From positions 1 through 23,415 of IMG/VR virus record IMGVR_UViG_3300035177_000003: DNA of 23,415 nucleotides; one strand, written 5' to 3'. A program made the translations under genes and the position numbers. Below, in pieces: positions 2,042 through 20,444 of this stretch. This stretch comes from a virus. Within the stretch, counting starts at the first letter, position 1, and each line of letters opens with the position of its first letter. The notes below the pieces were generated by a model. The model had not been told where the DNA came from. It saw nothing but the letters and a program-made list of their open reading frames with translations, and searched no databases.

Positions 2042-3675
2042 GGGTTCACCTTCTCCCAATTCGCTTTGTCGGCGGGGTCACCGCCCTTGAAGCGGTAGCC
2101 GCCCTCGACGGTGCCGACCGCAGGCCCGGTTCCGGTTTCGGCCTTGCTGCCCTTTATGCCGCCGATTCCCTTTGCCAGATTCCCGACCAGATTGTCGAAG
2201 ACGTTGAGCTGCTTGAGCGCCAGTTCCGTGCTGCCACTCGTAATGTTCGGAAGCGCCTTGATGATCGCGTGACGCATCGTGTCGGAGCCTTGCCCCATGC
2301 CCGCCACGCTCCGCAGCGACAGGGCGCGTTCCTGCATCGAGAACAGGTCCGCCACCAGGTCTTGCTGTTGCGGCGTCAGGCCAGACGCCATAAGGTCGGT
2401 AATGGCGTTCTTCATCGTGGACGGGTCCACGTCGCGCATGGCGAGTGACAACTGCGCCGTCTGCTTGGGGCTGAACGGCGCAAGGCCGCGAGCCGTCAGC
2501 GCAGACCGGAGGGCTTGGCTTCCCGATTGGATGTCGGCGATTTGCGCCTGACGGCCCATGACACTGTTCGCCAGCGAACCAGGGGCAGCGCCTCGCGCCT
2601 CCGCGTCCTTGGCGCTCATATAGACGAAGTTGCCGGTCTGAGGGTCAAACACGGCGACCGGGCGCGTTTCGTTGTAGCCCGCGCCATGAGCCTCTCCGCT
2701 CGCAGCGGCTTCATCATTCCTGATCTTCTCGATGGCCTTTCCCCAGCGGTCCAAGTCCGAAAGGTACTTGGGGTCTTTCGCTCCGCCGGGATAGTTCTTG
2801 GCGTCAGGCTCCGGCCCAACCGCCGCCGTAACTTGCGCGCCGATTTCCGGGGCGAGGCCGGTCGGCTTGGGTGCTGGCGGCATCACCGGCTGGCCGTTCA
2901 GCAGAAGCGGCGTTACCTTGCCGCTGCGGTCAACCATGACAAAACCGTTGTCGGTAGCGTGGATTTCCGGCGCGCCCTGCGGAGCGGGGGCCAAAACAGG
3001 TTTCCCGCCGAAGGTGACCGGCTCAACGTCGCCGGTGGCCTTGTTGATCCGCATGAGGCCACCGGCGGTATTTTGGACCTCGTAGGGAGGCACCGGACCC
3101 TGCGCAGCTTTAGCGGCGTCCGCGCTCGCCAACCCCGCGTCGGCCTGCGACTTCTCTATCCCGGCCTCCGTCGCCGCCTGCTTCTCCGCCCGGTCAGTCT
3201 GGCCCTCCGCCTGCTGGCGCCGGTCCTGATACCCAATGGTCCCGATGCCCAGCCGTTGCTCAATCCCGGGGGCGAACAGGCGTCCGGCGGCGTCCCCGAT
3301 CTTCTGGAGAACCCCGAGTTTCCCGGTATAGTTCGGAGGTCTGATGGCGCTCTCGTTCTGCTTGGCCTGCTGGACCGCCTCCATCGCGGGGGACGGACCC
3401 ATTGCGGGGGATGCAATCGCGGGGAGCGGCCCCATCGAGGCCCCGGGTGGCATCAGGGCTGGCGGCGGGGCGGCCGGGGGCGCGATGCCAGGTGCCCGCA
3501 GCGGCCCCGCAGTCGCGTCAGGACGCGGCGGAATCCCCGGGATGGTGTAGGCGCGGGGCGAAGGCCCCGGAGCCGCAATGGTGGGCTGCTGGGGCGCAAT
3601 GCTGGCCGCTAGGCGTGCGAGTGCCTGCTGGTCAAGCGGCAACGGGTTCAGGTTGGGGGGTGCGATGGTTGCCAT
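2038..3675 (-). CDS. Putative internal virion / ejection protein (545 aa)
   Basis: The first ~100 residues are proline-rich and disordered. A charged Ala/Gln/Lys stretch that may form a coiled coil follows (around 150-190), then short beta-rich repeats around VEPVTFGGKPVL and VTPLLLNGQPVM. The C-terminal half is helical and ends in GGYRFKGGDPADKANWEKV, a tail seen in many phage internal virion proteins. The protein most probably sits in the capsid and is ejected with the DNA. It starts 2 bp after the stop of the 176-residue gene and overlaps the 475-residue gene by GTGA. No catalytic residues are recognised. Confidence 0.75.
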   Translation of the reverse strand: MATIAPPNLNPLPLDQQALARLAASIAPQQPTIAAPGPSPRAYTIPGIPPRPDATAGPLRAPGIAPPAAPPPALMPPGASMGPLPAIASPAMGPSPAMEAVQQAKQNESAIRPPNYTGKLGVLQKIGDAAGRLFAPGIEQRLGIGTIGYQDRRQQAEGQTDRAEKQAATEAGIEKSQADAGLASADAAKAAQGPVPPYEVQNTAGGLMRINKATGDVEPVTFGGKPVLAPAPQGAPEIHATDNGFVMVDRSGKVTPLLLNGQPVMPPAPKPTGLAPEIGAQVTAAVGPEPDAKNYPGGAKDPKYLSDLDRWGKAIEKIRNDEAAASGEAHGAGYNETRPVAVFDPQTGNFVYMSAKDAEARGAAPGSLANSVMGRQAQIADIQSGSQALRSALTARGLAPFSPKQTAQLSLAMRDVDPSTMKNAITDLMASGLTPQQQDLVADLFSMQERALSLRSVAGMGQGSDTMRHAIIKALPNITSGSTELALKQLNVFDNLVGNLAKGIGGIKGSKAETGTGPAVGTVEGGYRFKGGDPADKANWEKVNP

Positions 3676-12600: not shown

Positions 12601-12775
12601 GGGGCGTCCCCGCCGAATTGCCGGTGCACACGTAGGCCGTGCTCCCGGGCAGCACCGCGAGTAACTGGATGCTCCCGGGCTGCCCGGTCACGGCGGTAGC
12701 GATGGTGTTGAGGGGCTGCAACTGCGCGGCGCAGCCACACGCCAGCATCGCGACAATGAAGGCAATGCGCCGCAT
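9614..12775 (-). CDS. Tail fibre / spike with right-handed beta-helix and N-terminal secretion-type leader (1053 aa)
   Basis: Residues 1-18 form a Sec-type leader: Arg2-Arg3, a hydrophobic core IAFIVAMLACGC, then A-AQ. Residues ~40-125 hold a small domain ending in VPLAQPLVADANGKLPGY. Residues ~140-210 are FnIII-like (YYYWVVSN, SYDVLRTT). At 385-392 WGTDDTTAV opens a pectate-lyase-type beta-helix (about 385-720; e.g. GITIEGAG-like turns and GVTVQDVALDAGG). A TGDWVFIAGL-type beta module follows at 730-795, then a Gly/Thr-rich C-terminus ending in SAWTCH. It is the likely receptor-binding or glycan-degrading spike; no catalytic Asp/Glu pair was identified. The start is 2 bp after the preceding stop. 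A T7 homopolymer lies just before the helix. Confidence 0.85.
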   Translation of the reverse strand: MRRIAFIVAMLACGCAAQLQPLNTIATAVTGQPGSIQLLAVLPGSTAYVCTGNSAGTPPATPCAAPGTAAIFSDIAGTVPLAQPLVADANGKLPGYAAAANYYITYTPPSGSIGAVTTINISLGPTTAQQYSVTAIAPAAPPTVSVVPVGTTGSTTYYYWVVSNFTLGNSAPSAAASLTNAAATLSGVNYDKVTWGAVTGANSYDVLRTTTATAPTGACACAVATAVSGVTQNDQSNTLSAYTVSTWAGNTTFNVTNVASAAGESKLTFAADHGTQFAVDNLHGVTITQPNISPTSIANVVIPNVTTNGKANDHGHAVASSTDFTTTDSVFASGDVGKTIVIENAGSGNKGFATTIAAYVSPTEVTLAAATPSSVTAGQTQFFWGTDDTTAVSAAITQAASIAQSKLFFEPGIYITTSTMVAQAADGLTIEGAGNGGNNQTGYGTRIVYAGTAGGAPGSGTENALLRISGTGVTVQDVALDAGGLATAALWADTTVDPIFSLHVQNVGAFAGRYWSAMWGQPDGSAFAGTFLGMASADNFLWGQSGCGFQFSNCNGTTLADGGGNLINIGNGNFNFAMSNSQGIANGVSRGFGDRSLMIYSGNKFAFDNLYLPPLGGVNQPSVDVEGGTNITFNSIYDENGYGLLSQSGSPLTVDGWLTRSTSASNAPHQAMLIPNEGRVNLRDVESDGLPVILSNGAELNCIGLCVESTLFGSDQVWSGMSAAVSAVARTGGTATLTTGTQSFATGDWVFIAGLTNTAYNGVWQLTGATSTSISFALTGTQSSTSDVGTVIVDPGLVGPTANRYITGTGPVFNANTMANGSGTDANRAAQVIATPQAMSGIAAFTPDFGGTNGEYIPSSLTAGLNLLDLRPSGTHNVPVWYYSTFGGAIGHTILGAPGVLPSDFTGTYPLEVLGTKDADSVIGQLGCGGTTCIARINFVANDQSSTVAQQVWSNDGTTKEWSISSASKQVLDASTASGTTTVTLGGTGVSVVAAGTFHLPVTIVSSLPTASGAGSGAMFIVTDAASTTIGVCTGSGSTVMIAVSDGSAWTCH

Positions 12776-12777
12776 GG

Positions 12778-13602
12778 TTACTTGGCCTGACGGATGGGCT
12801 GGCCGGGGATCGGGGCGGCGACCCGGGGGGCCGGTTCAGCAGCGCCCTCCAGCTTGTCCTTGGGGATCAGGCCGGAAGCCGACCACATCCCGATAAACTC
12901 GCCGGCAGTGCTGTAGACCGCGCCGCAACCGTGCTGGCGCGCCCCTGGCTTCATCGGCTCCTGACACCACTGGCACGTCCCCATCGGGACGGCATTGGCG
13001 CTCCATTCAACCTTCTGGTTGGCATGGGCCGCTCCCCAGCGATGGGTGCCGCAAATCTTGTCCAGCTTCCCTTCCTTGGCGAGCTTCTGGCCGTCCTCGA
13101 ACCACAGCATCGCCATCTTCATGAGGCGCGCCTCGGCCGCTTGCAGTTCCGCCTCGGACGGCTCCGGGTTCTCCCGGGTGGCCGTCTCCGAAATGAAGAC
13201 GCCCCAATGCTCCCGATTGGTGGTGCCCAGTCCGAACGCCGGGGACGATGACCCGATCCCCACCACGTCCTTGGCGACTTCGGCCCCGAAGTCATGGAAG
13301 ATCCCCATGCGGCCCTGCGCGTCGCCCTGGTCATAGTCGAGCGGCAACACCCCCGTGATGTAGGGCTTGCCCCCGTGCTCAACCGGGCCACTGTACCGGG
13401 CACCCTCCGGCTTCGCCGGGATGATGAAGATGCCGTGCGACCCGAGCGAAACGCGGTACAGGAACGGCGCGACGCTGAAGACGAATGCCGGGGGCATCGT
13501 CTCCTTCAGGCGCTCGTGGTCCCCGGGGGCGCGGTGGCGGGCGTTATTGGCGGCGATGGCCGCTTTGATGGCCTCGCGCGGACTTTGAATGGCGGTTGCC
13601 AT
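12778..13602 (-). CDS. Unknown Cys-containing phage protein (274 aa)
   Basis: I do not recognise the family. Residues 38-140 look like a compact alpha/beta domain (FVFSVAPFLYRVSLGSHGIFIIP, then YITGVLPLDYDQG and GIFHDFG). Residues 145-180 are a helix. The end holds Cys184-G-T-H187, Cys210-x2-Cys213, His224 and Cys226, suggesting a zinc-binding knuckle. The last 25 residues are Pro/Ala-rich. It follows the 201-residue gene by 9 bp and has a strong AAGGAG. Its place between capsid and fibre suggests a virion or assembly role, which is inference. A DNA or protein adaptor with a zinc ribbon is an alternative. Confidence 0.7.
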   Translation of the reverse strand: MATAIQSPREAIKAAIAANNARHRAPGDHERLKETMPPAFVFSVAPFLYRVSLGSHGIFIIPAKPEGARYSGPVEHGGKPYITGVLPLDYDQGDAQGRMGIFHDFGAEVAKDVVGIGSSSPAFGLGTTNREHWGVFISETATRENPEPSEAELQAAEARLMKMAMLWFEDGQKLAKEGKLDKICGTHRWGAAHANQKVEWSANAVPMGTCQWCQEPMKPGARQHGCGAVYSTAGEFIGMWSASGLIPKDKLEGAAEPAPRVAAPIPGQPIRQAK

Positions 13603-13607
13603 AGGTT

Positions 13608-13613
13608 CTCCTT
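13608..13613 (-). promoter_or_regulatory. Strong Shine-Dalgarno for the 274-aa gene
   Basis: AAGGAG, five bases before the ATG at 13602, within TTTAAGGAGAACC. It overlaps the TAA stop of the 201-residue gene. Confidence 0.75.
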
Positions 13614-14217
13614 AAAGTTGCTGCGGGCCATGCGACCCTAACTGCTTGACGATCTCGGGGCGCGGCCGGATGATGATGTCGTCGGGGGTGCGTTTCCCCG
13701 GGTTGCCGCTCACCGGGTTGCCCCCGAACGGCCCCATCGCGTTGTCGAAGATGGCGTCGAACCTTTCGTCCCGTTCCTTTTGCTGGCGCTCCATCCGGGC
13801 CTTGACGGCGATTCGGCGCTGCTCATCGCTCAGGAGCTTGCCCCGCTCAATGCACTGGCACAGCAGTTGCAAAAGCCCGGGTTCCAGCGGGGAGCCTTCG
13901 CCGTCCGGGGTCTCAAACGTGAAGGTCCACTCGTAGTCCCCTTCAGCCGGGTACGGCCCGAGCGATGGCGTGCCATCCGGCTCCCGCATCGCTTCCCACG
14001 CTTCCCGGGTTCCGTAAGTCTCGGGCCCGCACCACCGCTCCACCATCCAGCGATTGCGCCCGTCCCCGTAGGTGCGGCGCGGCGCTCCGCACTCGAACCG
14101 CACGCGGTCCTCGGACCAAATGACGCGCCAGTTGGGCTGCCCGTAGATGTTGGTGCCGAACCGGCGCAGCAGCGTCGCGGCCCATGAGGGCGGTTTGCGG
14201 GAACAGGCGTCGCTCAC
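13612..14217 (-). CDS. Unknown phage protein, GTG start (201 aa)
   Basis: A soluble alpha/beta protein of unknown function. It contains GTNIYGQPNWRVIWSEDRVRFECG (residues ~22-45), an acidic beta stretch DYEWTFTFETPDGEG (about 93-107), a helix LLQLLCQCIERG and a long charged helix RRIAVKARMERQQKERDERFDAI (about 133-155). The GTG at 14217 is preferred because it overlaps the TGA of the gene before (GTGA). An in-frame extension of 46 codons upstream lies in that other gene and is a shadow. Its first codons carry the 16-bp repeat also found at the start of the Tat-like gene. It and the 274-residue protein may work together. Confidence 0.72.
   Translation of the reverse strand: MSDACSRKPPSWAATLLRRFGTNIYGQPNWRVIWSEDRVRFECGAPRRTYGDGRNRWMVERWCGPETYGTREAWEAMREPDGTPSLGPYPAEGDYEWTFTFETPDGEGSPLEPGLLQLLCQCIERGKLLSDEQRRIAVKARMERQQKERDERFDAIFDNAMGPFGGNPVSGNPGKRTPDDIIIRPRPEIVKQLGSHGPQQL
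14196..14211. repeat. 16-bp direct repeat, left copy
   Basis: TGCGGGAACAGGCGTC is identical to 14516-14531. On the minus strand both copies encode Asp-Ala-Cys-Ser-Arg in the same codon phase at the very start of two neighbouring genes. Confidence 0.9.
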
Positions 14218-14537
14218 TCGACACCCCGCAAGAACTCTGCGAATTCCGCCTTTGCCGCGCGCAGCTTGCCAGAGGGAACCTCTCGGCATCCCGCTGGAAC
14301 GGGGAACCGCTGGACGTACTCCTTGCCGCGTGCTGTCGCGGTCAAGAAGAAGCACCGGCCAGTCTCGAAGCCGCCGCGAGCGTCATGGCACCCGAAAACC
14401 TCTTGGCCCTCAACCCGGTACACGGAGATGCCGTCGTATTTCGCGGCGAGAGGAATGAGTGCGACAGCCGCCGAACCGGCGATCAGGCTCTTAATTGCGT
14501 GGCGTCTTGTCACGCTGCGGGAACAGGCGTCAGCCAC
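14214..14537 (-). CDS. Small exported protein with Tat-like signal (107 aa)
   Basis: Thr10-Arg11-Arg12-x-x-Ile-Lys matches most of the twin-arginine consensus (S/T-R-R-x-F-L-K, with Ala in place of Phe). A hydrophobic stretch SLIAGSAAVALIPLAA (17-32) follows, then a possible cleavage site before KYDG. The remaining 70 residues hold three Cys and a basic helix near the end. It could be exported or anchored in the inner membrane as a moron-type protein; a membrane-anchored lysis accessory is an alternative. The GTG start overlaps the end of the 73-residue gene by 8 bp; a second GTG at 14513 would put RR nearer the start. The whole gene lies between two 16-bp repeats. Confidence 0.62.
   Translation of the reverse strand: MADACSRSVTRRHAIKSLIAGSAAVALIPLAAKYDGISVYRVEGQEVFGCHDARGGFETGRCFFLTATARGKEYVQRFPVPAGCREVPSGKLRAAKAEFAEFLRGVE
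14516..14531. repeat. 16-bp direct repeat, right copy
   Basis: Identical to 14196-14211, exactly 320 bp apart. It lies over the start codons of the Tat-like gene and the last codon and stop of the 73-residue gene. Confidence 0.9.
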
Positions 14538-14751
14538 GCTTGACTACCTCGACCCGGCAAAACGCCGTCTCGAACACTTGTTCCAGCGCGAGCGATAGCT
14601 CTTGGATCAGCGCGATTGCGTCAGTGAATGTGAGGCTCTCGGCTTCTTCAATCCAATCCGACGCGCTGAAGGATAGAAGAATGTGACCACGGTCGTTCGG
14701 AGAAGGCTGAACCCGGAAAGGACGATGGGGCCGCTGCAAGAGGTCGCTCAT
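14530..14751 (-). CDS. Small unknown protein (73 aa)
   Basis: A 73-residue soluble alpha/beta protein with a central helix TDAIALIQELSLALEQVFETAF and a strand before it (HILLSFSASDW). It is not recognised. The ATG at 14751 has no clear SD. The gene is the first after the GC-rich hairpin downstream of the capsid gene and overlaps the Tat-like gene at its end, so it may be read at a lower level than the capsid. Confidence 0.6.
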   Translation of the reverse strand: MSDLLQRPHRPFRVQPSPNDRGHILLSFSASDWIEEAESLTFTDAIALIQELSLALEQVFETAFCRVEVVKRG

Positions 14752-14761
14752 AGAATTTGTT

Positions 14762-14785
14762 GGGGCCGATTACCGGCTCGGCCCC
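14762..14785 (-). terminator. GC-rich hairpin downstream of the capsid gene
   Basis: GGGGCCGA and TCGGCCCC form a perfect 8-bp stem with an 8-base loop, 14 bp after the capsid stop. There is no U-run after the stem, so it could be a leaky terminator, a 3' mRNA stabiliser or a processing site. Confidence 0.45.
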
Positions 14786-14799
14786 GAAGCCGCAAAAGG

Positions 14800-16062
14800 T
14801 TAGCCGTTGAAGCCGTTGGGCAACAGCAGCCCGTCAATGAATCCACCGGCGCGCGGATTGTCGAGGTACACGTTGAACCCGCACACCAGATAGCTGAGGT
14901 TGCTGGTCGCGACGGAACCGTCAGACCCGTACGCGGGGAACACCGTCTGGCCCCCGGACTCGTAAGGCCCGAGCTTCTGGGTCTCGGCGCGGCCCCAATG
15001 GTTGAGGATCAGGAGGTCGGTACGCCCCGGCTGCGCGTTCAGGCTGCACAGGATCGGGAGGTCGCCCATCCGCTTCGGCGCGGTCCGCTTGAGCATGTCT
15101 TCGCTCGCGCTCCCGCCCAACTGGTTCTGGATAACCTGCGTGACCACCAGGCCGACGTTTTCCCACGCCGATTCCTGGTCCTGGTTCATGTGCCAGATGC
15201 CGCCCTCGACGTTCGGGGTCTCGATGCCCGCCTGCATCCGCATCCGGGCTTGCAGGAGCCGAATCATCTGTGGGGTCAGGGGGCTGTTGCCGGCCGCGAC
15301 GTGCGGGGTCTTCAGCATCCCGGGATAGCTGGACCGGGGAAGCTGAAGGAACATCCCGGTATTCGAGTCCACCTGATAGGTCTCGATACCGGCCAGCGAA
15401 CTGTTGGCGATGCCGGGGGCGCCGTGAACCAACAGCAGGTCGCCCGCTTGGGTGGCCCCGCCGGTCGCCGGCAGTGGGCCGGTCGCGGTGATCTGGTTGG
15501 CGATCCCGTCCACGGTAAAGACGGTGAAGGTGCCGCGCTTGGTGCCCCCGAGGGCCGACCACACGTCAACCTGCCAGTTGCCCTTGAACTGGTTGGCGTT
15601 GGTCGCGACCGTGATGGTGCTGCCGGAAACCGAGGAAACGGTGTCGAGCGTTCCGCTCCCGTCGGTGTTGAGCAGCGACTCGATGAAGGTCCGCATCGTG
15701 GTGATGCCGCCCTTCAGGGTCTTCTTCACGCTGGACTCGATGGCCTTCTCTTTCGAGTCGGTCGCCGCGTCCATCAGCATCGTCCATTCCAGCGCGGTAT
15801 CGAAATACACGCTGGTGATCTGGCCGTAGTCGCTGTAGATGGCGGAGCCGCGCCCCAGGGGGCCGCCGTCGGGGTTGATCTGGCTGGGGCTGCCGCCAGG
15901 GATGATGTCGAGGGGAACGCGCATTGCCCGGCTGGAAATGCGCTGGAGGTTTTTGCCCTGCTGAATCTTGTCGAACAGGGTGTGGTCCTGCAAGAAAAGT
16001 TCCTGCGAGTTAGGCATGACCCTTTCGAGCTGGTACGCGATCGTTTGCGAATTGGATGGCAC
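14800..16062 (-). CDS. Major capsid protein, HK97-fold type (420 aa)
   Basis: The N-terminal arm (residues 1-45) is followed by MRVPLDIIPGGSPS and GGPLGRGSAIYSDYGQITSVYF, a pattern found in podovirus major capsid proteins. A helix with TDSKEKAIESSVKKTLKGGI (about 100-120) fits the HK97 spine helix. Residues ~138-212 look like an inserted beta domain with repeated VSGSTITV and NQITATG strands. The C-terminus returns to beta strands (YLVCGFNVYLDNPRAGG). Length is typical. The start is GTG at 16062 behind a strong AAAGGAG. Position after the portal and scaffold genes supports the call. Confidence 0.88.
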   Translation of the reverse strand: MPSNSQTIAYQLERVMPNSQELFLQDHTLFDKIQQGKNLQRISSRAMRVPLDIIPGGSPSQINPDGGPLGRGSAIYSDYGQITSVYFDTALEWTMLMDAATDSKEKAIESSVKKTLKGGITTMRTFIESLLNTDGSGTLDTVSSVSGSTITVATNANQFKGNWQVDVWSALGGTKRGTFTVFTVDGIANQITATGPLPATGGATQAGDLLLVHGAPGIANSSLAGIETYQVDSNTGMFLQLPRSSYPGMLKTPHVAAGNSPLTPQMIRLLQARMRMQAGIETPNVEGGIWHMNQDQESAWENVGLVVTQVIQNQLGGSASEDMLKRTAPKRMGDLPILCSLNAQPGRTDLLILNHWGRAETQKLGPYESGGQTVFPAYGSDGSVATSNLSYLVCGFNVYLDNPRAGGFIDGLLLPNGFNG

Positions 16063-16247
16063 TGGTAGGTTCTCCTTTGTTCTGGTGAACCCGCCGCGTT
16101 ACCGTATTCGCCCCGCACGGGGGCCAGCTTCGGCGCTGCTGTGCTGAAACGGACGGTTGTCTTGCTTACTGCGTGGACATGGCGCTCAACAGCCCGGTTT
16201 CGCCAATGGCCGGGGTGTCCGATCCCCGCGCTGCCCTGCGCCAAAAA
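16063..16247 (-). other. Capsid gene leader (185 bp, no convincing gene)
   Basis: The second-largest gap in the window. It holds only short overlapping shadows, a 5-bp GC stem at 16110-16124 and the capsid SD. A promoter or processing site for high capsid expression would fit here, but no convincing -35/-10 pair is visible. Confidence 0.5.
16072..16077 (-). promoter_or_regulatory. Shine-Dalgarno that decides the GTG start of the capsid gene
   Basis: AAGGAG nine bases before the GTG at 16062 (context AACAAAGGAGAACC). It supports GTG over in-frame later ATGs such as Met16. Confidence 0.7.
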
Positions 16248-20368: not shown

Positions 20369-20444
20369 TGGAGCTACCGGAGGGCCTCGAACCCCCGACC
20401 CGCTGTTTACGAAACAGCCGCTCTACCAACTGAGCTACGGCAGC
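20369..20444 (-). tRNA. tRNA-Thr (anticodon CGU)
   Basis: A full cloverleaf can be folded: acceptor stem GCTGCCG/CGGTAGC (one G-U), D arm with AGTTGGTA loop, anticodon stem GCTGT/ACAGC with loop TTCGTAA (anticodon CGT, reading ACG, threonine), T arm GGGGG/CCCTC with loop TTCGAGG, discriminator T and encoded CCA. It is 76 nt long with CCA, in the same direction as all genes. It lies inside the structural module, so it is a phage tRNA that may help decode ACG in the Thr-rich fibre and hub; identity is secure. Confidence 0.96.

Follow-up and report, generated by a model that had tools for sequence, protein, structure and literature searches.

The closest described counterparts of the locus reported here are the morons of P22-like and lambdoid phages, such as the ant moron (PMC2629481), which are extra genes at one place of the late operon, absent in some relatives, variable between relatives in length and content, and unrelated in their cargo. 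Among the P22-like phages compared, morons occupy a single place in the morphogenetic cluster, beside the tailspike gene (PMC2629481), whereas the variable site described below lies directly behind the capsid gene. A promoter and a terminator of its own are the usual, not obligatory, traits of a moron. Two other known elements resemble parts of the locus, namely the free-standing HNH/endonuclease VII genes located between phage genes and the Tat signal peptides (PF10518).

The whole stretch of DNA that was analysed (the window) is a 23,415-bp IMG/VR record whose terminase, portal, capsid and tail-type genes all share a strand; the names of the portal and tail genes come from their position and from relatives. 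Between the late genes, at 20369-20444 on the minus strand, there is a tRNA-Thr gene (anticodon cgt). Single-protein scans of viral contigs with g107, the capsid protein, g201, the portal and the terminase returned nothing, and relatives emerged only with alignments. The window terminase is about 26% identical to those of phages such as ctMlz233 and HMO-2011, and an alignment of terminases from phages of this sort led to L007 and L008, both of which keep the window gene order; capsid alignments then yielded 44 loci from viruses and 30 from cellular genomes. All of them are distant, with a capsid identity to the window of 32-48%, that is, 48% at best. The tyrosine integrase domain PF00589 was found in none of 11 related viral contigs. 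As the cellular-genome loci are titled Acidobacteriota or its groups in all but one (L131, labelled Patescibacteria), the host of the phage, judged from these sequence relatives, is probably an acidobacterium. The exception, L131 (JAGWWT010000009.1), is a 45-kb contig that was binned as Patescibacteria, possibly misbinned, and carries a phage of this group.

The region between the capsid gene and the conserved gene g201, hereafter the slot, holds the following features in the window, from upstream to downstream.

14800..16062, minus strand: major capsid protein gene, which bounds the slot on the left (match at 7e-7 to PHROG 14242, major head protein; relatives 32-48% identical)
14762..14785, minus strand: hairpin GGGGCCGAGCCGGTAATCGGCCCC, conserved in relatives where g201 directly follows
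14530..14751, minus strand: g73, orphan 73-aa gene whose GC3 is the lowest, probably belonging to one insert with g107 (by homolog search in relatives and GC3)
14516..14531, minus strand: 16-bp direct repeat, upstream copy, in the first codons of g107
14214..14537, minus strand: g107, orphan 107-aa gene with a Tat-like N-terminus, putative accessory insert (weak coding-frame score, GC3 0.72)
14196..14211, minus strand: 16-bp direct repeat, downstream copy, in the first codons of g201
13612..14217, minus strand (start GTG 14217): g201, conserved 201-aa gene whose function is unknown, which bounds the slot on the right (homologs at the same place in L007, L008 and most relatives)

Measured from the capsid stop codon to the g201 match, the slot is between 69 bp and 5.2 kb long in the 57 distinct relatives in which it could be measured, and the distance from g201 to g274 never exceeds 119 bp where both were found; other late junctions, for example around the scaffold and tail genes, are also variable in length. 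The slot contains no gene in L131, L007 and L088, the three relatives nearest to the window by path in a capsid tree in which the window sits on a long branch of its own and its exact placement is unsure. In the empty form, represented for example by L007, L088, L117, L121, L123 and L130, the capsid gene is followed by the hairpin and then directly by g201. Capsid flanks may be about 93% identical and yet enclose slots that differ by hundreds of bases, as in L121 (78 bp) and L127 (605 bp, including a gene for endonuclease VII), and the pairs L146/L147 and L145/L157 likewise combine about 93% identical flanks with unlike slots. The cargo of other slots comprises genes for Endonuclease_7, Cpn10, Fic/Doc, a rhodanese with a signal-like N-terminus, a universal stress protein (Usp) and a SpoU methylase. 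Therefore, the slot lengths, the empty slots of the nearest relatives and the unlike cargo support the slot as an accessory-gene site with g73 and g107 as its cargo in the window, and the original prediction of an extra gene at an insertion site is supported by the empty slots of the three nearest relatives and the unrelated cargo of others.

Free-standing endonuclease genes are represented in the same slot by the Endonuclease_7 genes of L105, L126 and L127, whereas g73 and g107 match no nuclease family. Co-chaperonin 10 genes lie directly behind the capsid gene in L115 and L120 (Pfam Cpn10) and, by likeness, in L116 and L125, and perhaps serve capsid folding. Another gene, g133 (133 aa; window 8797-8396, minus strand), lies among the tail genes of the window and has its homolog in the capsid slot of L099, L109, L110 and L112; by these sequence matches it is a gene that changes place between phages.

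The hairpin behind the capsid gene, located at 9847-9872 in L007 and at 7261-7286 in L088, has a core in which 22/22 bases are identical in the window, L007 and L088, the capsids of these relatives being less than 50% identical to that of the window, and its pairing is kept by compensatory changes in other relatives. It may tune capsid expression against the downstream genes. In the window, g73 and g107 sit between this hairpin and g201.

No homolog of g73 was detected in the relatives, and no credible homolog of g107 was found in PHROGs, Pfam, NCBIfam, PDB, phages, GTDB contigs or 396 genomes of an Acidobacteriota MAG's phylum; the best genome matches of g107, at 3.6e-4 (with a stop inside) and 1.6e-3 (E per genome, with 396 genomes scanned), are near chance level. 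One of these, L167, was inspected and falls within unrelated genes, and the earlier match L161 was inspected too. GC3 is 0.66 in g73 and 0.72 in g107, against a mean of 0.84 in equal-length pieces of the other window genes, of which 0.2% and 4%, respectively, are as low; in GC3 both genes thus differ in base composition from their neighbours, as morons do, and low GC3 in genes this short is weak evidence for insertion. Because g73 also lacks a detectable homolog in the relatives and has an even lower GC3, the insert probably consists of two genes, of which the original prediction had only g107; the empty relatives are without both g73 and g107, not g107 alone. By codon use, the own frame of g107 has the best coding-frame score of the six, but weakly. 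Translation could start at GTG 14537 for the full form or at the internal GTG 14513, which would give 99 aa (MTRRHAIK...). The single-sequence fold of g107 (pLDDT 42) is unusable.

Unlike morons, g73 and g107 have start and stop codons that overlap those of operon genes, and no promoter of their own or convincing terminator was found for them. A consensus scan, from which Acidobacteria promoters may differ, detected no minus-strand promoter-like site in 12700-16200, and the one minus-strand terminator-like site is inside g107, such sites being no commoner than in shuffles. Save for the promoter and terminator, the pair fits a moron-type insertion, and the capsid-adjacent slot adds one more case to a type of cargo slot that is already known.

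The N-terminus of g107, TRRHAIKSLIAGSAAVALIPLAA, shares with Tat signal peptides the T-R-R-x-x-I-K pattern (TRRHAIK) followed by a hydrophobic stretch, but lacks F where one is usually found and shows no evident A-x-A cleavage site, and Pfam TAT_signal (PF10518) reaches 13.0 bits (E 0.11), below the 22.7-bit cut-off. The description of g107 as Tat-signal-like thus holds for the twin arginine and the hydrophobic stretch but not for the family score, and the case for twin-arginine export is suggestive only. From this N-terminal pattern, the g107 product may be a small exported or membrane-anchored accessory protein. Separately, a 1053-aa fibre-like protein of the window (12775-9614, minus strand) has a signal-peptide-like start, MRRIAFIVAMLACGCAAQ, and its relative in L007 (from 11291; match over residues 1-123) also has a signal-like start, MRKLLCTIAALGIAALGQ; it would be unusual for a phage fibre to bear a signal for secretion.

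The direct repeat reads GACGCCTGTTCCCGCA on the minus strand, where its copies (14531-14516 and 14211-14196) are exactly 320 bp apart (as TGCGGGAACAGGCGTC, exact at 14196-14211 and 14516-14531, spacing 320), and the window holds a single other match to the 16-mer at up to 3 mismatches (3269-3284, 3 mismatches). Both copies have the same codon phase at the starts of g107 and g201. The upstream copy stands in GTG GCT GAC GCC TGT TCC CGC AGC GTG ACA AGA CGC (M-A-D-A-C-S-R-S-V-T-R-R), the g107 protein starting with MADACSRSVTRRHAIK, and the downstream copy in GTG AGC GAC GCC TGT TCC CGC AAA (M-S-D-A-C-S-R-K), the g201 protein starting with MSDACSRKPP. The g107 stop and g201 start overlap as GTGA, the g73 stop and g107 start overlap by 8 nt, and an SD-like GAGGT precedes the upstream GTG. 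Coordinates and phase of the exact repeat at two gene starts agree with the original prediction, as does the outcome of a 320-bp deletion between the copies, which by sequence would leave g201 in frame with an intact GTG, reading MADACSRKPP; exact flanking direct repeats and an in-frame next gene after deletion are what a removable cassette would have. A second exact repeat of 12 bp, CGCCGGTTCGGC (minus strand), occurs at 14470-14481 and 14155-14166 with a spacing of 315, a register close to that of the 16-bp repeat, though the codon frame differs, and 2 of 2000 banded shuffles reach this match. The duplicated stretch could once have been longer; no alignment was found for the sequence between the 16-bp and 12-bp matches, and homology extending upstream of the 16-bp repeat was looked for and was not significant.

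In 300 codon shuffles of the window, in which every gene kept its own codons, an exact repeat of at least 16 bp occurred anywhere in 39% and an exact 16-mer repeat within 500 bp in 3.7%; the window itself holds one longer exact repeat (17 bp, copies 10.3 kb apart), and short near repeats also occur in other phage loci of the group. The shuffles and these near repeats speak for a coincidence, or a purely local duplication of the start region unrelated to the gain of g107. Against this reading, which we hold to be unlikely, 16-nt matches that share their register at the starts of neighbouring genes are far rarer (a rough, post hoc estimate from simple codon matching gives an expectation of about 2.5e-6 for the window), and one copy borders a gene absent from the relatives. 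The 16-bp repeat is probably non-random, and it is not strong evidence alone. The earlier argument that so close an identity is unlikely by chance stands for the short distance and the register, but not for the presence of some repeat of at least 16 bp, which over a third of the shuffles contain.

The relatives give no support for removal through the repeat. Among their fetched loci (capsid identity 48% at best) there was no single-copy form lacking the 320 bp, and the 16-bp repeat was in none of the loci, by sequence search of the earlier ones and slot comparison of the later ones. At other occupied slots no copy of the g201 start of at least 14 bp was found, except in L102, the occupied slot of which has an 18-bp palindromic intergenic repeat, and in the cleanest natural insertion, L127 versus L121/L123, an endonuclease gene replaced the intergenic region with no flanking repeat. 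Nearly all other occupied slots are without such repeats, and repeats as the general route of insertion into the slot were rejected. It had been allowed that the repeat might reflect a widespread conserved protein N-terminus; this was refuted, as the N-termini of g201 differ and DACSR is in no homolog examined. From these sequence comparisons the repeat seems confined to this phage and, with differing g201 N-termini, a shared protein motif therefore fails to explain it.

If the repeat were an active deletion element, the population would mix g107-plus and g107-minus phages, and in the latter g73 would overlap a g201 reading MADACSRKPP. The same phase of the copies, the open frame after deletion and the SD-like GAGGT before the upstream GTG agree with such an element, but it is made distinctly unlikely by the missing single-copy form, by a repeat seen in no other locus with nothing comparable at nearly all other occupied slots, and by its length. 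Sixteen bp is short for general recombination, although slippage at repeats of this kind takes place anywhere at a low rate. We give least credence to a contingency element that would switch between g107-plus and g107-minus states, turning a small exported protein on and off with the g201 start always in frame. Repeat-mediated removal is possible in principle; of the predicted removable cassette, or moron, the accessory gene in a variable slot is retained, whereas removal through the repeat and an insert of one gene are not. The source being a metagenome contig, the 16-mer might also be an assembly artefact at which g107-plus and g107-minus strain variants were joined, and short words shared between sequences are where assemblies typically misjoin; however, operon-style start/stop overlaps link three genes across both copies, which would rarely come from a misjoin, and we regard an artefact as very improbable.

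Because the repeat is private to this phage, the g201 N-terminus is not conserved and nearly all other occupied slots have no such copy, the repeat is best read as a scar of the gain of g107, and it is probably such a scar or by-product rather than an active switch. Based on these findings we propose, with moderate confidence, that the slot gained g73 and g107 on the lineage of the window, that the repeat is the scar of this gain, and that the genes belong to the late operon and g107 encodes an exported or membrane-bound accessory protein. First, accessory genes of this phage group would insert at the capsid-g201 junction, and g73 and g107 would have come in there on the window's lineage. Second, recombination, either short-homology or illegitimate, would have brought g107 into g201 at its 5′ end, leaving the first codons of g201 in copy on both sides of g107, and with its start codons duplicated g201 would therefore have kept a working start. 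Third, g73 and g107 would be translated within the late operon through the overlapping start and stop codons, and the g107 product would most likely act on the infected cell and not be part of the virion. Such a scar is not seen to recur, as nearly all other occupied slots lack a comparable duplication; the window is one metagenome contig, and at the distance of the relatives (none above 50% capsid identity) the insertion junctions and date are unreadable.

The repeat alone is minor, and the slot is the more useful finding, being a capsid-operon site in a little-studied Acidobacteriota-associated group at which accessory genes are gained and lost among close relatives. It points to a place in soil phages where new genes for host interaction can be sought.
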